Of a stretch of 64,000 nt of DNA, positions 2,227-50,037 are shown one piece after another. The position numbers and the translations under genes are program-made. Source of the DNA: Gemmatimonadota bacterium (GTDB lineage: Bacteria > Gemmatimonadota > Gemmatimonadetes > Gemmatimonadales > Gemmatimonadaceae); NCBI GenBank assembly GCA_021298835.1, contig JAJTHG010000001.1:1-64000 (forward strand), given 5' to 3'. The stretch's first letter is position 1, and every line of letters begins with the position of its first letter. Under the pieces are notes generated by a model. The model saw nothing but the letters and a program-made list of their open reading frames with translations, was not told the DNA's origin and did not search any database.

Positions 2227-5200
2227 GGCGACGCTCCGGAAGTGATGTTCGGGAAAATCGTTCCCGTGATGGTGAACAGCCGGGAGGCGCCACCCGCAGT
2301 GAACGTCATGGTGTTCGGCCCCGGGTTGGTGCCGACCTGGAACGAGACGGTCACGCGTCCGTTCGCGTTCGTCTGGAAGGTTTGCGTCGGCAGCGTGATG
2401 ATCCCTCCGACGCTGTCGGGTTGCGTGTTCGTCACGGTCACCGTGGCGTCGCGAATCGGTGTCCCCAGCGCGTCAACCAGCGTGGCCGATACGCTCGCCG
2501 AGGTACCGACCTGCTGGGGGACAAGCACTTGGCTGAAGAAGTCCACGAAGGCCGCCGGCGCACCCCAGCCCGCCGCCGTGAGCGTCACCGGTGCCGCGTC
2601 CGGTGCCGAAGCGATGATCAGGTGCAAGCCCGGCGTCGCGGACAGGGCGAAGGGGCCGGGCAGCACCGCCACGCCGTCCGGGTTGGTGACGGCGCTGCCC
2701 GCCGCCTGTCGGTTCCCCAGCGGGTCAACACGTTCGAAGGTCACGGTCGTCCCGACCACCACCCCTCCGAGTGCGTCGGTGAGTACCACCGACGGCAGGT
2801 CCCCGAGCGTGGTGCCGGCCGGGCCGCGTGCGCCGTCGTTCGCGAGGGGCCGAAGCACCCGCTGGCTGCCCTGTGCCTGACCGGTGACGTTGAGGACCAG
2901 AATCACGCTGGTGCCGCCGGCGAGGGACGCCTGAACGAGATACCGACCCGGGGTCCCCGGCGCACTGCCGCCCAACTGAGCGACGCCGTCGCTGTCCGTA
3001 CGCCGCACGAGGATCGTCCCGGTGATCGGTCCTCCGATTGCGACGACGTCGGGGGCCGACCACGTCATCGTCACCGGTGCGTCGGGCACGCGACTCTCGT
3101 TGGCGTCGTACACCGTGACCGACGCGCTGCTCGGCACCGCCGCACCCGCCGCCACCGTGATGGACTGCTGGGTCGCGGGCAGGAGCCGCGCAGGATCGCC
3201 CACCACCAACAGGAACGCACTGGTGCCAGTAACCGGACCCGACCCGACAACTGTCACGCTATATGGACCGGGCTCATCGCTGACGGCGAACGGCTCGATC
3301 GTCGCGTTCCCCGAGGCATCCGTCGTCAGGAACCCGCCGACGGAACCGACCTGGGACGAATCCGGCGCGATCAGCGAATAGAAGAAGCGCTCACCGGGAA
3401 CCGGGGTGCCACCCGCCGTCTGCGCCTGCACCACGATCGGGGTGGCGAACGGCTGACCCCGGCGCACCCGCTGATTGCCGCCGCTCAACACCACGAGTCG
3501 CGTCGCCACGAGCGCCTCGGTCGTGGCCGTGAAGTCGCGCACCAACGCTCCGCTCGTGGCCCGCAGCGTGTTGGTCCCGCCCGAGGGGCCGAGCGTCCAA
3601 CCGCCCACGGTCGCGATGCCGGCCGCGTCCGTGACCGGCGTCGCGCCGGTCACGCTGCCGCCGCCGGCCGTGACGGCGAAGGTGACGGTGACGCCCGGTA
3701 CGGGGTTCGAGAAGGCGTCCCGCACGCGCACCGACGGGGCGATCGCGACGGCTTGCCCGGCCTGGCCCACCTGAACGCCGTTCGTCGGCGCGACATAATC
3801 CATGACCGTCGGCGCACCCGGCGTCCCCGTCGCGGTGAACGAGACCGGCGACAGCGGACCGCTCGACGCGGACAGGGTGTTCGCACCGGCGGTCGTGCCG
3901 AGCGTCCAGCTCCCGACGCCGGCTCGACCGTTCGCATCCGTGGTGGCGCTGCTGCCGGTGACGCTGCCGCCCCCGCTCGCCACCGCGAACGTGACGTTCA
4001 CGCCAGCGACGGGATTTCCGTTGGCGTCGGTGACGAGGACACGCGGTGCCACGGCGACTGCCGTGCCGACCGTCGCGCTCTGCGCGTTCCCGGCGTCGAT
4101 CGCGAGGGTAGCCGCAGCGCCCGCGGTTCCGGTGACGCTGACGGTGGGGCCGGTCGCTGGGCCCGCCGAGGGGGAGAGCGTGTTCGCGCCCGCCAAGGCG
4201 GCCAGGGTCCAGCGACCCGGGGATGCGAGCCCCGCAGTGTCCGTCGTGGCGCTGCCGCGAACGACATTCCCCACCCGGCCTCCGAGCGTGAACGACACCG
4301 CGACGCCCGCCAGCGGTACACTCAGGTCGTCGGTGAGACGGTACACCAGCGAATCGGGCAGTATCCCCGACACCACCGCAGAAGTCGGCGGCGCACCGGC
4401 GACGACCGCGAGCGTGTTCGGCGGCCCGACGGTGATGTTCATGGGCCCACTGGACAGCGAGAGCGCACCGGACGTGAACACGAGCGTGCCACCGGTGCCC
4501 GGGCGCGACGCGCGCAGCCCGGTGAAGGTCGCGGTCGCGCCGACCGGCGACGCCGTCAGCGGACCGGTCAGGGTGGCCGTGCCGGGCCGCGTCCCGAACG
4601 CCACGGCGACCGGCTCCGAGAGGGTGGTGGCGTTGCCCAGCGCGTCCCGACCTTCGACGACGACCGTGAACGGCGCCTCGGCCCTGATCGCGCCCGGCGG
4701 CGCACCCGCGAACCCGAGGGCCGCGAGGACCCCCGCATTGGCCGTCTGCGTGAAGGTCACCGGCGGCAGGCCGGCAACGGTCGCGGTGAAGCCCTGCGCT
4801 CCCGCCACCGTCCCCAGCGTCGCGGTCGTCGAGGCGACACCGTTCGCGTCGGTGCGGACCGTCGTCTGCCCCACCGAGGCACCAGCGGCGAGCGCGGCGA
4901 AGACCACCGGCACGTTCGCCACCCCGAGCCCGTCGGCGGCGGTGACGACGACCCCCAGGGGCTGCGGCAGCGCGGTGGCGACCGTCGCCGACTGGGCATC
5001 GCCAGACGTGCGCGTGACGACGGTGGGCCGCGGCACGAAGAGAAGGGTCGTCTGGTCGGTCACCGAGGTGCCGAGCACGGTCCCCTGCACCGTGACCGAG
5101 CCGCGGCGAGACGGGGCGCGGACGAAGCCCGTCGTCCCCACCGTCACCTGCGGGTCGGACGTCGTGAGGTTCACGAAGAACGCTTGCACTTGCTGCGCCC

Positions 5201-5714
5201 CCGCCTGCGCCGTCGAGCGGAAGCGCACCGAATCACCGAACGTCAGGATCGTGTCGCGAGGCGCGATCGTCAGCGAGGTGACCGTCGCGCCGGGCCCCGC
5301 ATAGGTCGGCGGTGGGAACGCCGGCGAAGGATTCCCGGTGCCGAACGACACCGTGAGCGGTCCGCTCGTCTGGAAGAGGAGCGTCGTGGCGTTGAAGAGT
5401 CGGATCCCGGCCGTGAACTGCTCCGTCGGCGACGACAGGGGGATGTCGAGTTCGACCTGTACCGATTGCTGGCCAGCCGGGAAGTCGAAGGACCGCTCGA
5501 GGGCGACGCTCCCGCCGGTGCGCGTGATCCGCACGGTCCCGCGATCGACCTCGAGGCGTGAGCCGTCCGGCGCGACAAGACCCGCTTCGGGGGCGGCGAT
5601 GCTCAGCGATGCAGCCCGGATCGCGCGTGTCCCGGGGCCAAGGGCGTCGCGGCACGCGAGGCCGGCACCGAGGCACACGAGGGCGGCAAGCGCCAAGCGC
5701 CGCCGGCGACTCAC
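2223..5714 (-). CDS. Giant Ig-like repeat lipoprotein (Big_1/invasin-type modules)
   Basis: 1163 residues from a GTG at 5714, with a GAGGG-type ribosome site about 10 bases upstream. The signal MSRRRR plus a hydrophobic stretch ends at Cys22 (GLAC, an imperfect lipobox). The body is roughly ten beta-sandwich modules of 90-110 residues with the hallmarks of bacterial Ig-like group 1 domains: VTDANGNPVAGVNVTFAV-like openings, GGGSVTG turns, and a TDANG(R/V)A step before a W-T-L-G strand. Such modules build rigid stalks on adhesins and exported proteins. Likely outer-membrane anchored and periplasmic or surface exposed. First gene of a two-gene unit with the RCC1 lipoprotein, suggesting stalk and head act together. 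No enzymatic domain is visible. Confidence 0.88.
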   Translation of the reverse strand: MSRRRRLALAALVCLGAGLACRDALGPGTRAIRAASLSIAAPEAGLVAPDGSRLEVDRGTVRITRTGGSVALERSFDFPAGQQSVQVELDIPLSSPTEQFTAGIRLFNATTLLFQTSGPLTVSFGTGNPSPAFPPPTYAGPGATVTSLTIAPRDTILTFGDSVRFRSTAQAGAQQVQAFFVNLTTSDPQVTVGTTGFVRAPSRRGSVTVQGTVLGTSVTDQTTLLFVPRPTVVTRTSGDAQSATVATALPQPLGVVVTAADGLGVANVPVVFAALAAGASVGQTTVRTDANGVASTTATLGTVAGAQGFTATVAGLPPVTFTQTANAGVLAALGFAGAPPGAIRAEAPFTVVVEGRDALGNATTLSEPVAVAFGTRPGTATLTGPLTASPVGATATFTGLRASRPGTGGTLVFTSGALSLSSGPMNITVGPPNTLAVVAGAPPTSAVVSGILPDSLVYRLTDDLSVPLAGVAVSFTLGGRVGNVVRGSATTDTAGLASPGRWTLAALAGANTLSPSAGPATGPTVSVTGTAGAAATLAIDAGNAQSATVGTAVAVAPRVLVTDANGNPVAGVNVTFAVASGGGSVTGSSATTDANGRAGVGSWTLGTTAGANTLSASSGPLSPVSFTATGTPGAPTVMDYVAPTNGVQVGQAGQAVAIAPSVRVRDAFSNPVPGVTVTFAVTAGGGSVTGATPVTDAAGIATVGGWTLGPSGGTNTLRATSGALVRDFTATTEALVATRLVVLSGGNQRVRRGQPFATPIVVQAQTAGGTPVPGERFFYSLIAPDSSQVGSVGGFLTTDASGNATIEPFAVSDEPGPYSVTVVGSGPVTGTSAFLLVVGDPARLLPATQQSITVAAGAAVPSSASVTVYDANESRVPDAPVTMTWSAPDVVAIGGPITGTILVRRTDSDGVAQLGGSAPGTPGRYLVQASLAGGTSVILVLNVTGQAQGSQRVLRPLANDGARGPAGTTLGDLPSVVLTDALGGVVVGTTVTFERVDPLGNRQAAGSAVTNPDGVAVLPGPFALSATPGLHLIIASAPDAAPVTLTAAGWGAPAAFVDFFSQVLVPQQVGTSASVSATLVDALGTPIRDATVTVTNTQPDSVGGIITLPTQTFQTNANGRVTVSFQVGTNPGPNTMTFTAGGASRLFTITGTIFPNITSGASP

Positions 5715-5848
5715 GGGGACACGCCCTCACCCGTCGGCGGAGCACTCGATACGGCATTCATGACGGAGGCAATGTGCAGACAGGCGGCGCGGGCGTCAAA
5801 GTGCCCGCTAGCTTTGTAATCCATGTCACAGTTCGTCGTGCCCGCTTC

Positions 5849-40900: not shown

Positions 40901-41171
40901 GATCCGGCACGCAGGACAGCTCGACAACCAGCTCGCGGAGCTCTACGGCAACCTCACGGGCGCGAACGGCTACATCTCGGGATCCGGCGAAGGCCGGCCG
41001 CGTCCCGGGGCGCTCGAGCGGTTGGGCGACCTGAACGCGCAATGGGGGCGCGAACGGGCCCGCTACGAGCGCATCCTCCGCGAGGACGTCCCGCGGTTCA
41101 ACGCGCGGGCGCAGAAGGCGGGCGTGGGGCCGCTGATCGTGCCGGCCACCAAGCCGAAGGTCGCGTCCTGA
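37974..41171 (+). CDS. Exported BNR/sortilin-type (VPS10-like) beta-propeller protein
   Basis: 1065 residues with signal peptide ending LGLDAQ. The first ~750 residues are Asp-box (BNR) propeller blades: repeated S-x-D-x-G-x-T-W elements such as KTEDAGMSWT, KSTDAGRTWT, RTKDGGATWQ, KSTDGGDTWK and RSDDAGATWT, giving the twin-propeller layout seen in sortilin-like and xyloglucanase-like proteins. The C-terminal 300 residues contain an Ig-like beta domain (GVIFTYWLADSADAVRVRI) and a helical tail. Often auto-annotated as glycosyl hydrolase, but no catalytic acid pair is evident. Likely periplasmic or surface, binding peptides or glycans. Ends at a strong hairpin. Confidence 0.87.
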   Translation: MLRSVRRLAWLALGLPLGLDAQRARPAAAITTAAAPDPAVWAGLKFRQVGPWRGGRSTAVAGHAAHPYLFYFGGTGGGVFKTEDAGMSWTNVSDGFFGGSIGGIDVADSDPNVIVVGTGSADIRGNTSPGRGVYKSTDAGRTWTFIGLKETQQVARVVIHPTNPDVFFVAALGHPFGRNRERGIFRTKDGGATWQHVLALNDSTGASDLAMDPTNPRILYAGMWRGERKPWSLISGGLEGGVYKSTDGGDTWKKLAGGLPTGLVGKVGVTVSGANPNRVWAIVEAEPAGGLYRSDDAGATWTRVNASNAIRQRAWYYTHVIADPQNEHQVYVLNTSIYRSVDGGRTLTNIPVPHGDTHDLWINPVNPKLMIIGDDGGAQVTLNGGKSWSTYNNQPTAEFYDVTVDNGFPYRIYTAQQDNTSISIPAWSSTNTLHPMQEWRYASGCETGPVALHPDHPDVIWGGCYGGAINRWDVASDLRQNVIAYPQLQLGQAAKDLKYRFQWVAPILVSRHDRNVVYHGAQVVLRTMDGGRTWREISPDLTTNDKTTQDFAGGPINHDITGVEIFNTVFALAESPTDPKELWAGSDDGKLHVTRDGGTTWQDVTPPGLGKYATVNRIDLSVHKPGRAYVAVHRYRMDDFAPYAYRTDDWGRTWTRLTDGTNGIPADHFVRVVREDKTREGILYAGTEFGLYVSLDAGRRWQPLQNNLPIVPISDLVVHRNDLVVGTQGRSLWLLDDLTPLHQLAAGAPERAHLFEPRPSERIGATALGGAGGNEPEPEARPEGVIFTYWLADSADAVRVRITDAQGREVRQFSSDTAEARRAQTPALKRAKGSHRFNWDITYVGPALEPGVVVWGYTGGIKAPPGTYTATFTAGGITQRREVRVLPDPRTKAVIAQADHDAMLSAALAVRDSLDVLQRSLGTLRSLKQQATRAVELAVSLGTDGQLKGAADTLKATMAGVEEAFTQVKSESGQDPIRHAGQLDNQLAELYGNLTGANGYISGSGEGRPRPGALERLGDLNAQWGRERARYERILREDVPRFNARAQKAGVGPLIVPATKPKVAS

Positions 41172-41219: not shown

Positions 41220-42488
41220 CTACGCCTCCGCGTCCGGGTCGCGGCGCAGCATTGCGTCGTACCCCGCTTTGCCCCGGCGCTGGTTGTACGCGCGCTGCTT
41301 GAGGTATTTCCGGTCCGACCCGCTGATGTCGCCCTGCCCGTACTTGCGCGCCATCGCCTCGAGCTCGCGCACCTGCTGCGCGGCCTCCGGGTCGTGGGAG
41401 GCGAGCGGGGCCATCGCCGCGGCGGCCGACGACAGCAGGTTCGCCGCGCCGGTGGTATCGCCGTCGTCGCCGAGCTCCACAGCCTGCTGCCGCGCCCGCG
41501 CGGCCTCCGCCGCGAGGACCTCGCGCGTGATCACCGGCTCCACGCGCTCCTGCGCGTCGAACGAAGCGGTGATCGGCGTCATGGTCGCGCGGCGCTCGAT
41601 GCCGGTGGGCGTCACGACCGCCGCCGTGCATTCGGCCTCGCCGAGCACCGCGTCGGGTGCGACGTGCGCCGCCGGCACCACCCAGCGCGCCAGCACGCGC
41701 TTCGGCTCGCGGGCATAGAGGTCGCCAAGGTCGAGCCGCACGCCGTTGACGAGCGCCGTCGCCGGCCAGTCCTGCAGCACCTCGACGTGCGTCGCCGGCC
41801 CCCGGAGCCGGAGCGTGACCTGCACGTCCTGCGCGACGAGCGACAGAAGGCCGGCGAGCTCCTCGCCGAAGACCGCGGAGGCCTGGTCGGGCCGCTCGAT
41901 GTACCAGGCGTTGCCGCCACCCGCGTCGGCAATGCCGCGCAGCAGGTCTTCGTCGTAGTCCTCGCCGAACCCCACGGTGCTGGTGGTGATGCCGCGCGAC
42001 CGGGCACCCGCAGCGAGGGCGCGCAACTGCGCCGGCGCCGTGAGGCCGTGGTTCGCGTGGCCATCGGTCAGCAGGAGGATCCGCGTCGCGCGGCCCTCGC
42101 CGGTGAGCGGGTGCAGGAGCTGCTCGGCCCGCAGCCAGCCCCCGGAGAGGTTCGTCGAGCCACCGGCCTCGACCGCCTCGAGTCGGGCGAGCAGGTCGGG
42201 CTGCGCCGCGCCCACGTCGGGTTCGGCCAGCGTGGCGACGTCGTGGTCGAACGTCACCACACCGATCCGGTCGGCGGGGTGCATGCGCCGCGCGATCGTC
42301 GCGGCCGCGGCACGCGCGGCCGCGAGCCGGTCGCCTTCCATCGAGCCCGACCGGTCGAGGACCAGGCAGAGCGACAGCGGCACGCGGGCCACGTCGGCCG
42401 GCGGCTGGCCGGAGAAGGTGGCGAGCAGTCGCACGACCAGTCCGCCGGTGTGATGCCGCTGCCAGTCGAGCGCGAAGGTCTGTTCCAT
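41220..42488 (-). CDS. VWA-domain protein
   Basis: 422 residues from ATG 42488, with a GGAG ribosome site upstream. The open frame continues 2.4 kb further upstream, but only antisense to the SEC-C gene. A von Willebrand A domain occupies about residues 38-210 with an intact MIDAS: DRSGSM (Asp45, Ser47, Ser49), Thr in GGSTNLSGG and Asp in LLLTDGHAN. A beta-sandwich follows, then a helical C-terminus rich in Ala and charged residues. No signal peptide or membrane helix, so cytosolic. Similar stand-alone VWA proteins act as metal-dependent adaptors. Partner unknown; it is divergent from the SEC-C gene. Confidence 0.85.
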   Translation of the reverse strand: MEQTFALDWQRHHTGGLVVRLLATFSGQPPADVARVPLSLCLVLDRSGSMEGDRLAAARAAAATIARRMHPADRIGVVTFDHDVATLAEPDVGAAQPDLLARLEAVEAGGSTNLSGGWLRAEQLLHPLTGEGRATRILLLTDGHANHGLTAPAQLRALAAGARSRGITTSTVGFGEDYDEDLLRGIADAGGGNAWYIERPDQASAVFGEELAGLLSLVAQDVQVTLRLRGPATHVEVLQDWPATALVNGVRLDLGDLYAREPKRVLARWVVPAAHVAPDAVLGEAECTAAVVTPTGIERRATMTPITASFDAQERVEPVITREVLAAEAARARQQAVELGDDGDTTGAANLLSSAAAAMAPLASHDPEAAQQVRELEAMARKYGQGDISGSDRKYLKQRAYNQRRGKAGYDAMLRRDPDAEA

Positions 42489-42638
42489 GAGGGGCTCCGG
42501 GTGTGGATGCCGCCATGGTGCAATGGCCGTCTGACATTGCCGGGCGGGCAGGGTGTTGCCCGGGCGACGCCGACCATTGCGCGCCGCGCACGGTGTACCT
42601 TGAACGCGCGAAACCTTCGCCCCCCAGCACCCCGCCCC

Positions 42639-45977: not shown

Positions 45978-46934
45978 TCACACCATGCGTCGCAGCACCG
46001 CGAGCACCAGCTCCCGGATCCGCGCCGGCGCGAGCACCTCGGCGTCGGGCCCGTACCGCAGCACGTGCCGCACCGCCCACGCGTCGTCCGCCAGCGGGTA
46101 CTGCACGACGATGCTGCCGTCGGGCTGGCGCTCGTGCGGCTCCCGCTCGGCGATCCATCGGGCGATCGCCGGCCCGTAGCGTACCTCGAGCGTCCCCGCT
46201 CCGGCGCCCATGAAGACGCGCCCGTCGCGCAGCACGTCCTCCACTGCGAAACCGGCGGGCACCTCGTAGGTAGCGCTGCGCAGTCGCACGCCGTCGATCC
46301 GGTCGAGCCGGAAGACCCGCGCCGCCCGCCGCGCCGCGTCCTCGGCGATCAGGAACCAGGCCCCGCGCGCCGAGACGAGCCGCCACGGCCGCACCACCCG
46401 GGGCTCGGCCGCCCGCGCGCCCGGCTTGCGATACGCGAGCTCGACCTCGCGGCGCGCCACCCACGCCTGCTGCAGCGCCGCGAGGTAGCGCGTCTCACGC
46501 TGCGCGCCGGCCACCGCCGTCCGCGGCGCAGCGGGCCCGATGCGCCCTGCGCGGACCGCTGCGTCGCCGGGCCCGAGCCGCCCGAGCTTCTCGCGCGCCC
46601 GCTGGATCGCCGGCACCGACTCGGCGGGCCCCTCCTGCGCCAGCATCGCCAGCCCAAGGGCGACGGCGGCCCGTTCGTCGGCCGACAGGCCGAGCGGCCG
46701 CCGGAACCAGCGCGACCGGACGGTGACGTGGTCGCGGTCGAGCAGCACCTGCACCCCCTCGATGAAGCCGCCCGAGGTGTCCTCGACCCGCTCCGCCAGA
46801 CTCTGCAGGTCCTCGCGCACGAGCGCCGCCGGTACGCGCAACGCCTTCGCGACATCGCCGATGCGGCGCGGGGTGCCGTCGGCCACCTTGGGCAGGAGCC
46901 GCAGCAGGCGCGCGAACCGGGCCACCGCGCTCAC
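45978..46934 (-). CDS. WYL-domain transcriptional regulator (PafC-like)
   Basis: 318 residues, start overlapping the stop of the upstream WYL gene (ATGA). N-terminal winged-helix region (RFARLLRLLPKVADGTPRRIGDVAKALRV) for DNA binding, a middle helical region, then a WYL domain at about 160-235 (VELAYRKPG, GAWFLIAED in place of the W-Y-L core, RVFRLDRIDGVR) and a C-terminal WCX extension (EVRYGPAIARWIAEREP). WYL domains sense ligands, probably nucleic acids or nucleotides. In actinobacteria PafB and PafC act together as DNA-damage-response activators. Third gene of the nuclease operon. Confidence 0.88.
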   Translation of the reverse strand: MSAVARFARLLRLLPKVADGTPRRIGDVAKALRVPAALVREDLQSLAERVEDTSGGFIEGVQVLLDRDHVTVRSRWFRRPLGLSADERAAVALGLAMLAQEGPAESVPAIQRAREKLGRLGPGDAAVRAGRIGPAAPRTAVAGAQRETRYLAALQQAWVARREVELAYRKPGARAAEPRVVRPWRLVSARGAWFLIAEDAARRAARVFRLDRIDGVRLRSATYEVPAGFAVEDVLRDGRVFMGAGAGTLEVRYGPAIARWIAEREPHERQPDGSIVVQYPLADDAWAVRHVLRYGPDAEVLAPARIRELVLAVLRRMV

Positions 46935-48043
46935 GATCCGGCCCCGTACGTCGCCGCCGTCCGGGCCGCGAGGTCACGGAACGCCTGCACGACGTGCCGC
47001 GGCGCCGTCGGCCGCACTTCGCCGCCGAACGCAAGCAGCCACCGCAGGAAGGGCTCGAGACGGCGCACCTGCATCGTGGCCGCGCGCGTCCGCGCGCGCG
47101 GTCCGACCGCGGCCGACGCCGGTGCCGCGCCGGGCAGGTCGCCGAGCGCGATGTGCACCGCGACCGACAGCCGCACGGTGACGGCCTCGCCGTCGCCGAG
47201 CTCCCACGCCTCGCGCGAGGCGGCGTGGGCGGCGAGCGCGAAGCCCCGCGGCGGCGCCACCGCGCCGTTGGGCGCCAGCGACTCGACGGCCGACATGCGG
47301 CTGGCACGGAAGGTCTTCAGGCGCTCGTCGCCCGGGTCGCGCGCGACGACGTACCAGTGACCCAGCTGGAAGACGAGCCCCAGCGGCTCGAGGGTGCGCG
47401 ACGCGGTGACGTCGCGATGCATCGAGCGATAGCGGCACCGGATGCGGCGGCCCTTCACGAGGGCGTCGCCGACCGTGCGCAGCACCGTCGGATCCAGCGG
47501 CTGGCCGACCACCGTCTCGCCGTGGTCGGCGTCCGGATCGAAGGCCGCGAGATCGTGCGCCACCGACGCCATCGCTCGGCGCGCCGCATCGGCCACGGCG
47601 GGATCCCCGAGCTGCGCCGCCCGCCCCGCAGCGCGGCGGATCATCGCGAGCTCCTCGGGCGAGAAGGCGACCATGGACACGCCCGGCGGGCCGCCGGTGC
47701 GTCGCGCCGGCGTGCCGTCGAGACTGTGCACGAACGGCAGGTAGAACTCGTGGGTCTCGAGCCCGTACCGGCTGCGGTTGCCGCCGGCGTCGGGGTACAC
47801 GCCGATCGGCACGCCCAAGGCGCGCAGTTCGTCCTTGTCGCGCTCCCACATGCGGGCAACGGCCGATTCCTGCCAGCGCTCGTCGCCGCGCGAGCGCAGC
47901 CCGCGCCCGTAGGCCGGCACCTGCTCGGCGAGTTCGACGAAGGTCAGGCGGTCGGGCGACCGCCGCAGCAGGGCGGCGACGACATCGAGCCACCGCTGCA
48001 CCTTCGCCGCATCCGCCGGCCGCGCGCGGCGCTCAGCCGGCAT
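46931..48043 (-). CDS. WYL-domain transcriptional regulator (PafB-like)
   Basis: 370 residues. Opens with an HTH region (KVQRWLDVVAALLRRSPDRLTFVELAEQVPAYG) and VARMWERDKDELRALGVPIGVY, the classic PafB-like start. The WYL domain lies at about 190-260 (IRCRYRSMHRD, GHWYVVARDPG, LKTFRASRMSAVE) and a WCX-like C-terminal domain follows (VTVRLSVAVHIALGDLPG). Its start overlaps the 3' end of the nuclease gene by 11 bases and its stop overlaps the next regulator's start, so all three proteins should be made together. Confidence 0.88.
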   Translation of the reverse strand: MPAERRARPADAAKVQRWLDVVAALLRRSPDRLTFVELAEQVPAYGRGLRSRGDERWQESAVARMWERDKDELRALGVPIGVYPDAGGNRSRYGLETHEFYLPFVHSLDGTPARRTGGPPGVSMVAFSPEELAMIRRAAGRAAQLGDPAVADAARRAMASVAHDLAAFDPDADHGETVVGQPLDPTVLRTVGDALVKGRRIRCRYRSMHRDVTASRTLEPLGLVFQLGHWYVVARDPGDERLKTFRASRMSAVESLAPNGAVAPPRGFALAAHAASREAWELGDGEAVTVRLSVAVHIALGDLPGAAPASAAVGPRARTRAATMQVRRLEPFLRWLLAFGGEVRPTAPRHVVQAFRDLAARTAATYGAGS

Positions 48044-49901
48044 CGGCGGTCATCCGCAGCCAGTGATCCCACACCAGCACCATGGCGAGCGTGTCCAGCC
48101 GGCAGTAGGCGCGAAGCAGCCGTCCCCACGCCTCGCGGCGCGCGGCGTCGTCGCGCGAGGCGCCGTAGAGCATCTCCTGGTACGCGGTGACCGCCCCCGT
48201 GCCGTCGGCGACCTCGAGCCGCGAGCCGTCGAGCTCCACCGGGGCGAGCGCGCCGTACGGATCGTCCGCCGGCGCCGCGTGGCCGCTCCACGCCGTGAAC
48301 CGCTCGTGCAGCACCGGATCGGCGCGCCACACTGCGTCGAGCACGCGCTTGATGCTCGTCTTGCCCTTCATCGCCGGGTGGAAGAACGCGTCCCGGCAGA
48401 GGGCGTGCATGTCCACCAGCCGGCCCGATGCCTTGTCGCCCATCCGGACGCACCACTCGACCAGCGACGCGTCCCCGTGGCCGTAGCGCGCCAGCTGCTC
48501 GCCGATCTTGCGCAGCACCGTGCGCTCGTGCGCCGACCACATCAGGGGCGTGCCGCCGTCGCCGATGATCGCGCGCAGCGTCCGGGCGAACTCGGCGCTC
48601 GGATACGCGTCCTCCAGGTTCAGCCACTCGCGATGCACCGGCGCCGCGCCGGGTGCCTCGATCGTGTGGCAGCTCCACTGGAACGCCACCGTCTCGTAGG
48701 GAGCCATGCCGGCATGGTACGGGACGGCCAGCGCCGAGGTCTCGAAGTCGATGAAGTACAGCGGGTACGGCCAGCCGCGCACGGCCGGCCCGAGCGTGTC
48801 GGCGATCCACGGCTGCCCCGAGCGCTGGTGCCGGAGCTGCACCAGTTGACGGCGGTTGATCGCGCCGGCCGTGCCGTCCCGTCGGACGAGCCAGTCGGGG
48901 TTCACGTCCTCGAGCCGCACGCGCCCCGCCGCGATCAGCTGGTCGGCCACCCGCTCGCCCTCCACCTTGACCTGCCCGAAGTGGAACAGGTCGAAGATCT
49001 CCGGGCGCGGCTCCCCGAGGGGGCCCCAGCACTCGGCGAAACCGTTGCGCCCGTCGGCACCCGTGCGGGAGTACTCGCACGCGCCGCATGCCCAGTCGAG
49101 GGGTCGCTGCACCCGCACTGGTCCGGTCTCGGGCAGCAACTCGGCCAACGCGTCCGCCTGCTCGATGATCGCCGGCAGCAGCTCCGTCACCTCGTCGTCG
49201 GCGGGGAGGTGGGTGAGGAAGTCGTCCGCGCGCACTGCGACCGGGTCGCCGGTGAACGCCACGGTGAAGGGCCGCCGCCCGGTGCCGTCCGGCTCGCCGC
49301 GCTGGATCTCGAACTGCGCCCACAGCCGGTCGATCGTCGTACGCTTGGCGGTGTCCACCACCAGCAGGGAGGGTCGGATCGTCGCCCCCGGGACGAGGCG
49401 CGAGAGCACGAGCACCTGGTAGGCGAGGTCGGCGAGGTACGGCTCCCATCGGCCAAGGATCTCGTGTCGCCCGCGGGTGGCCCGCGCGCTGCGGAAGGCC
49501 GTCGGTGCGCCCTTCTCGGCGCGGTCGGCGACCTCGTGCGAGTCCATCGCCGAGGACTTCACCTCGATCAGCTCGAAGACGTCGCCGCGCCGCCGCAGGA
49601 TGTCCACCCGGGCCGCCAGGCGGCCGGCGAGCAGCGTCGCCTCGAACCACGTGCCGTCGCCGGCCATGATCGCCGCACGCGTCGCCTCCCAGTTCTCGCG
49701 GGTCCGCCGGTGATCCGACGGCAGCGCCACCCCGTCGGGATACCGGAGCTTGGCGAGCATCTCCACCATGTAGCCCCCTTGGGCCAGCAGCTGGAGGTAC
49801 GGGTCTTCCTCGAGCGTCGTGGGGTACCCGTGCTCGCGGTAGTAGAGCTTGGTCGGGCATTCGCGCGCGGCCTTGAAGTCGGACTTGGAGAGCGTCGGCA
49901 T
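48033..49901 (-). CDS. DUF2779 protein: Cas4/AddB-like Fe-S PD-(D/E)XK nuclease plus DEDD exonuclease-like domain
   Basis: 622 residues from ATG 49901. Residues 1-~300: PD-(D/E)XK core with Asp100 (VDIL) and Glu113-x-Lys115 (IEVKSS), and four cysteines in the Cas4/AddB order: Cys15 (RECPTKLYY), Cys272 and Cys275 (CGAC), Cys291 (AECWG), expected to hold a 4Fe-4S cluster. Residues ~375-622: DUF2779, with IDFETSA (Asp385, Glu387), Asp497 (LVDMHALC) and Asp603 (YCRLDTLAM), a DEDD-like metal-binding set related to RNase H/DnaQ-type exonucleases. Together this suggests two nuclease active sites on one polypeptide. It heads an operon with two WYL regulators, so damage- or phage-responsive nucleic-acid processing is a fair guess. 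Residue roles are inferred by eye. Confidence 0.85.
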   Translation of the reverse strand: MPTLSKSDFKAARECPTKLYYREHGYPTTLEEDPYLQLLAQGGYMVEMLAKLRYPDGVALPSDHRRTRENWEATRAAIMAGDGTWFEATLLAGRLAARVDILRRRGDVFELIEVKSSAMDSHEVADRAEKGAPTAFRSARATRGRHEILGRWEPYLADLAYQVLVLSRLVPGATIRPSLLVVDTAKRTTIDRLWAQFEIQRGEPDGTGRRPFTVAFTGDPVAVRADDFLTHLPADDEVTELLPAIIEQADALAELLPETGPVRVQRPLDWACGACEYSRTGADGRNGFAECWGPLGEPRPEIFDLFHFGQVKVEGERVADQLIAAGRVRLEDVNPDWLVRRDGTAGAINRRQLVQLRHQRSGQPWIADTLGPAVRGWPYPLYFIDFETSALAVPYHAGMAPYETVAFQWSCHTIEAPGAAPVHREWLNLEDAYPSAEFARTLRAIIGDGGTPLMWSAHERTVLRKIGEQLARYGHGDASLVEWCVRMGDKASGRLVDMHALCRDAFFHPAMKGKTSIKRVLDAVWRADPVLHERFTAWSGHAAPADDPYGALAPVELDGSRLEVADGTGAVTAYQEMLYGASRDDAARREAWGRLLRAYCRLDTLAMVLVWDHWLRMTADAG

Positions 49902-50037
49902 GCGGCGAGGGTGGCGGGGACGTCTGACATGACACACGACTCGCGTGCCGCCGTCGGCCCGCCCGGGCATTGTGACCGCCGGTCCCCGGCTCGTCAACGG
50001 CGACTGGCGCGCGCATTGCCAACCGGCCCGTGCCCGA

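Follow-up and report, generated by a model that had tools for sequence, protein, structure and literature searches.

A PafBC-type regulator pair in Gemmatimonadota, its promoter motif, and its link to a predicted two-nuclease DUF2779 protein

A three-gene operon headed by a DUF2779 protein

The window, by which we mean the whole stretch of 64,000 nucleotides analyzed, belongs to a 3.46-Mb assembly (91.6% complete) and carries three minus-strand genes that overlap end to start. The first (48033..49901) encodes a DUF2779 protein of 622 amino acids, which appears to combine an Fe-S PD-(D/E)XK domain with a DEDDy-type RNase H-like domain and carries no helicase. It is followed by genes for a PafB-like HTH-WYL-WCX regulator of 370 amino acids (46931..48043) and a PafC-like HTH-WYL-WCX regulator of 318 amino acids (45978..46934). 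The gene coordinates confirm an earlier note on this DNA as to the place of the three genes and the 11-base overlap between the first two (48033-48043); the second overlap, given there as ATGA, is in fact GTGA, as the third gene starts with GTG. No Rfam match was found between positions 41000 and 52000 of the window.

Within the DUF2779 protein, the PD-(D/E)XK half spans about residues 1-295 (49017..49901, minus strand; the domain ends are estimates) and contains C15, D100, E113, K115, C272, C275, and C291, while the DEDD/RNase H-like half spans about residues 380-622 (48036..48764, minus strand) and contains D385, E387, E459, D497, Y599, and D603. The Pfam family DUF2779 (PF11074) matches residues 382-516 with 82 bits against a cut-off of 23.3 and, together with the conserved DEDD-type residues, assigns the protein to this family. 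Among 61 homologues, the four cysteines as well as D385, E387, Y599, and D603 are invariant, and D100, E113, K115, E459, and D497 are conserved in at least 90%; homologues sharing the predicted catalytic and cysteine residues come from many phyla. Y599 and D603 form a YxxxD, overlooked in the earlier note, which suggests a DEDDy-type third motif. An AlphaFold2 model built from the 61-sequence alignment (pLDDT 95.1, pTM 0.92), which supersedes a model from nine sequences that was too weak for fold search, found as its best solved match in Foldseek a Cas4-Cas1 fusion (7mi4; E 6e-4, probability 1.00), followed by lower matches with weak E-values to Cas4, MGME1, the exonuclease-helicase DinG, and the DEDDh enzyme ERI2. 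The N-terminal half thus has the D...(D/E)xK motif, the four cysteines, and the Cas4-like fold of Cas4/AddB-type nucleases, the cluster and the activity being predicted. The two nuclease halves proposed in the earlier note, with structure prediction as the suggested check, are borne out by the conserved residues and the Cas4 match and, more weakly, by the matches to DEDD folds.

Both halves have precedents in a survey of RNase H-like proteins, which placed DUF2779 among predicted 3'-5' exonucleases and already described its members as carrying a PD-(D/E)XK-like domain (PMC3985635). Residues and homology together argue for nuclease activity. Since the DEDD clade includes RNases as well as DNases and the activity of DUF2779 is predicted only (PMC3985635), the protein could act on RNA or in nucleotide clean-up rather than on DNA ends, in which case regulation would be its only link to damage; however, its other half belongs with Cas4/AddB nucleases, enzymes that act on DNA, and the usual PafBC neighbors in Gemmatimonadota are DNA-end nucleases, so that we regard this reading as hardly credible.

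PafB/PafC identity of the regulators and their promoter motif

Pfam detects a WYL domain in both regulators and, in the third protein of the operon, WCX and HTH_PafC as well; the WCX match of the PafB-like protein, at 22.7 bits, falls slightly under the cut-off of 23.9. Profiles of the two regulators each match their own half of a fused PafBC (6sj9) best (PafB, 1.5e-47; PafC, 1.3e-51), whereas matches to CapW/BrxR are far weaker (1e-5 or weaker for the first regulator and about 1e-6 for the second). The regulators are therefore far closer to PafBC than to the CapW/BrxR type. In mycobacterial PafBC, the arginines that bind single-stranded DNA (ssDNA) are R211/R214 in PafB and R201/R204 in PafC (PMC11804915). 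By alignment, each WYL domain in the window retains this pair, R246/R249 corresponding to R211/R214 and R209/R212 to R201/R204, making them putative ssDNA-binding residues; at other PafB positions, R181 corresponds to R216, R208 to K243, and R204 to D239 of the window protein. The locus accordingly has what defines PafBC, tandem HTH-WYL-WCX genes of which one is PafB-like and one PafC-like, and the claim that PafB- and PafC-type regulators occur here outside actinobacteria stands.

Descriptions of PafBC and its promoter come from actinobacteria, where, in mycobacteria and other members, PafBC acts as a RecA-independent activator of the DNA damage response at the promoter termed RecA-NDp, being switched on by ssDNA and working by sigma adaptation. 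When motif discovery by expectation-maximization was run with no preset pattern on about 53 PafB upstream regions of Gemmatimonadota, it recovered TGTCAgACCC-N6-TAnnnT, with a log-likelihood of 218 compared to 62-66 for shuffled sets. The window contributed nothing to this training, as the stretch upstream of its PafB-like gene lies inside the DUF2779 gene and has no site. Summarized as TGTCAS-N10-YANNNT, the motif equals that of PafBC in Mycobacterium tuberculosis (TGTCGG/TGTCAG/TGTCAC-N10-TA-N3-T; PMC8151990) and fits the older consensus tTGTCRgtg-8nt-TannnT (PMC5656591). A strict form, picked after motif discovery, occurs 27 times in 14 pair-positive genomes but only 4 times in 14 negative genomes, while the reversed-motif control is flat (4 and 5, respectively). 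For genes outside the training set, the motif lies upstream of 8 of 10 VWA genes and 8 of 12 AddB genes, compared to 17 of 402 other genes; single sites were also found upstream of RecC and of a COG2251-like PD-(D/E)XK/RNase H protein. Either the sites cluster 5-7 nt ahead of the start codon, the spacing expected of leaderless promoters, or they are at least 24 nt upstream. The RecA-NDp signature at target genes, TGTCR-N11-TANNNT, is thus strong across the phylum; as a scan of four whole genomes with this pattern gave no excess over the reversed pattern, it is too loose on its own, and the tighter motif is needed.

The PafBC-type site of the COG2251-like protein, in L238 (genome G017), is 31 nt upstream of its gene, in a genome for which PafB was looked for and not found. 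In L239, an ARPP-1 domain protein (532-1470), a possible further regulon member, lies 30 nt downstream of a strict site.

In the window, a PafBC-type site (TGTCAGACGTCCCCGCCACCCT; 49908..49929, minus strand) ends 6 nt before the ATG of the DUF2779 gene, a leaderless layout, and has CACCCT instead of TAnnnT at -10. A second site (TGTCAGACGGCCATTGCACCAT; 42515..42536, minus strand), the top-scoring one of the 64-kb window, lies upstream of a gene for a VWA-domain protein of 422 amino acids (41220..42488, minus strand). This gene, 4.5 kb away, shares the promoter motif of the DUF2779 gene and is a predicted member of the same regulon; it had been overlooked in the earlier note, as had the DUF2779 site. 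In other genomes, VWA homologues sit near PafBC-like pairs, with the motif upstream. When the best upstream sites of the window's 45 genes are ranked, VWA (18.3 bits) and DUF2779 (12.3 bits) are followed by a third gene at 7.3 bits. Both window sites read TGTCAGACG...CACCnT, and the CANNNT at their -10 position is common in relatives, too. The pattern TGTCASAC-N8-YANNNT has three matches in the whole genome, two of which are these sites; for the third (L224), no convincing downstream gene was found. As the match at the DUF2779 site is moderate (11.9-12.3 bits) and the loose pattern at one mismatch is not enriched in the window (9 found versus 15.6 expected), the case for it is made by its position and the shared TGTCAGACG.

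The motif is also found upstream of the two other operons that join DUF2779 to a pair (L021 and L134). In L034, a Gemmatimonadaceae locus whose DUF2779 gene has no adjacent WYL gene, a site scoring 18.4 lies 6 nt before the start, and a PafBC pair is located elsewhere in its genome (PafB match at C5:4699-5787, E 4.2e-130; the same match as for G199, of the window's family). The DUF2779 gene of L043 has a site as well, with no pair found in its genome, and about 20 other DUF2779 genes have no site upstream; the same holds for most solo DUF2779 genes in the phylum. The damage-responsive character that the earlier note had proposed for the operon finds support in a promoter motif matching the mycobacterial one.

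Distribution and genomic neighbors

A PafB-like gene or pair is present in 71 of 249 Gemmatimonadota genomes, usually in one copy, and DUF2779 in 72. The two occur together in 11 genomes, which is rarer than chance (20.5 expected); they are adjacent in 3 of the 249 genomes, and a fourth has them about 4 kb from each other. The 3 adjacent cases among the 11 genomes with both are far more than chance would give (about 2e-7 under random placement). The adjacent cases comprise two DUF2779 subfamilies and two gene orders, and about 10 changes in WYL adjacency have to be assumed on the DUF2779 tree, so the operon is recurrent and was assembled more than once, and is no fixed inherited system. On the same grounds (3 of 249 genomes, scattered, with this many adjacency changes), a conserved stand-alone three-gene system, for defense or otherwise, was ruled out. 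The earlier note had staked its reading beforehand on DUF2779 genes co-occurring with WYL pairs and on the nuclease folds being present, and we found both, the DEDD fold more weakly. A search for its three-gene order did recover that order and genomes with both components, albeit with adjacency in few genomes, and its "self-contained module" has to be given up in view of these counts and of the usual neighbors of the pair, AddAB, RecBCD, and VWA.

Such rarity, amounting to 3 of 72 DUF2779 genomes in the phylum, and the scattered, repeated changes of WYL adjacency on the tree could also mean that pafBC landed behind a DUF2779 gene by a transcriptional accident, leaving the enzyme without any tie to the damage response. 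We consider this very unlikely: adjacency among co-occurring genomes exceeds random placement, it spans both subfamilies and both gene orders, and the motif immediately precedes DUF2779 in the window, as it does an unlinked DUF2779 gene in a genome that has PafBC.

Of 55 PafB-like loci whose surroundings were compared, about 18 have AddA, AddB, or RecD nearby, 11 (the window among them) have a VWA gene, and 9 have a PUA-like gene. Several loci are AddB-AddA-PafB-PafC or RecB-RecD-PafB-PafC operons, and in the window DUF2779 takes that place. A conserved protein of ~390 amino acids follows PafC in several Gemmatimonadota loci (L137:6462-7628, L138:11250-12518, and L139:7269-8441); Pfam gives it a weak PUA-like match at best (PF24405 in L137, no match in L138). 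In L145, a PafBC-like pair at the contig start has close downstream a PD-(D/E)XK/RNase H/helicase protein of 1186 amino acids (2236-5796), separated from the pair by two small opposite-strand genes.

Across phyla, a single WYL gene lies directly beside DUF2779 in 9 of 146 neighbor positions compared to 8 of 506 further away, as seen in several Bacteroidota, Colwellia, and two contigs from viral collections, and WYL is the commonest neighbor family of DUF2779 (7 of 150). Given that WYL regulators control defense loci (PMC9122588, PMC9122589), these associations, together with 29 plasmid records carrying DUF2779 relatives and one Flavobacterium locus in which HNH, DUF2779, WYL, and SMODS-like synthase genes stand in a row, could be read as signs of a phage defense operon, in which the WYL pair, on sensing nucleic acid made by a phage, would turn on, or cease to repress, a DNA-degrading effector, like CapW/BrxR beside CBASS/BREX. 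Yet the window regulators are of the PafBC and not the CapW/BrxR type, the neighbors of the pair in the phylum are repair nucleases, defense families other than WYL turn up only sporadically beside DUF2779 (1-3 of 150), where housekeeping genes occur as well, and P0001 had no match in any phage-genome record. P0002 had no match in plasmids. With regard to enrichment in defense islands, PADLOC, applied to 150 DUF2779 neighbors and 119 control genes, gave no clean separation, the control being dominated by kinase models. Phage defense is, on balance, rather unlikely and not favored over DNA repair, and the "invasion-responsive" part of the earlier note found no specific support, repair being the simpler fit.

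Three observations concern individual records. The contigs labeled Colwellia chukchiensis (L109) and Pseudoalteromonas luteoviolacea (L110) have identical DUF2779 proteins and gene coordinates over about 18 kb, owing to either recent transfer or contamination. In the IMG/VR contigs L113 and L116, a WYL gene immediately precedes DUF2779; these contigs could derive from prophages or be host DNA that was sorted wrongly. The DUF2779 sequence of a metagenome-assembled genome (MAG) labeled Bifidobacterium breve (L087) falls within a group of sequences from Ilumatobacteraceae and other Actinomycetota MAGs, and this label is probably wrong.

A predicted PafBC-type damage operon and its relation to known systems

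Taken together, the locus is probably a damage operon of the PafBC type that is triggered by ssDNA and activates itself, its output being a two-nuclease enzyme without a helicase in the usual place of AddAB/RecBCD. In this model, which extends homology and conserved residues to function, ssDNA arising from damage or stalled replication would bind the WYL domains of a PafB-PafC heterodimer, and the loaded heterodimer would help the housekeeping RNA polymerase at promoters in which TGTCAS precedes a weak -10 element (YANNNT) by about 10 nt. One such promoter would drive DUF2779-pafB-pafC, so that the switch amplifies itself, and a second would drive the VWA gene. The DUF2779 enzyme, with its putative Cas4/AddB-like Fe-S nuclease and DEDDy 3'-5' exonuclease, would trim or degrade DNA ends, as AddAB or RecBCD, encoded beside PafBC, would in relatives. 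An ssDNA-triggered operon that raises a DNA-end nuclease agrees with the increase in AdnAB that PafBC brings about in M. tuberculosis (PMC8151990). No AddB of the AddAB type was found in the window's genome and only two UvrD-type helicases were, which is compatible with DUF2779 filling the AddAB role, the absence being tentative in an incomplete assembly.

More broadly, and more tentatively, Gemmatimonadota may possess a second, LexA-independent damage response, in which an autoactivating PafBC would use the actinobacterial promoter code to control swappable end-processing nucleases (AddAB, RecBCD, COG2251-like, and DUF2779), the DUF2779 enzyme having taken over the AddAB/RecBCD role in the window's lineage. 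Our search of the open literature found no paper linking PafBC with Gemmatimonadetes or Gemmatimonadota. An apparent PafBC switch outside actinobacteria, coupled by the same promoter signal to an uncharacterized two-nuclease enzyme, suggests that this alternative to SOS reaches beyond the group in which it is known. If regulator, sensing residues, and promoter code all occur in another phylum, it becomes possible to test where this non-SOS damage response originated and how it spread. The DUF2779 family gains its first regulatory context, and the genes of the predicted regulon can be listed: VWA, AddB, RecC, COG2251-like, and DUF2779.

Among known systems, PafBC of mycobacteria is the closest in its tandem pafB-pafC genes, HTH-WYL-WCX architecture, best match of each protein to the correct half, ssDNA-binding arginines, and promoter motif of the same sequence and spacing; moreover, AddAB adjoins PafBC-like pairs in Gemmatimonadota much as AdnAB is raised by PafBC in M. 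tuberculosis. It differs in its host phylum, in that no pup-proteasome gene was recognized beside the window pair, and in that the window switch appears to be under its own promoter, with a DUF2779 enzyme as output. CapW and BrxR, WYL repressors of defense systems, have the WYL ligand-sensing domain in common with the window pair but are single-gene regulators, and the pair fits PafBC far better. COG2251-type proteins (PD-(D/E)XK plus the RNase H-like PF13482, in many cases joined to an SF1 helicase) share their domain order with the DUF2779 protein, which has PF11074 in place of PF13482 and no helicase; in related genomes, one protein of this type has the PafBC motif upstream (L238) and another adjoins a PafBC-like pair (L145). 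Compared to AddAB, AdnAB, and RecBCD, the window operon lacks the helicase motor and the second subunit; what it shares with AddAB and RecBCD is a PD-(D/E)XK nuclease encoded in an operon with, or divergently from, PafBC-like pairs of Gemmatimonadota.
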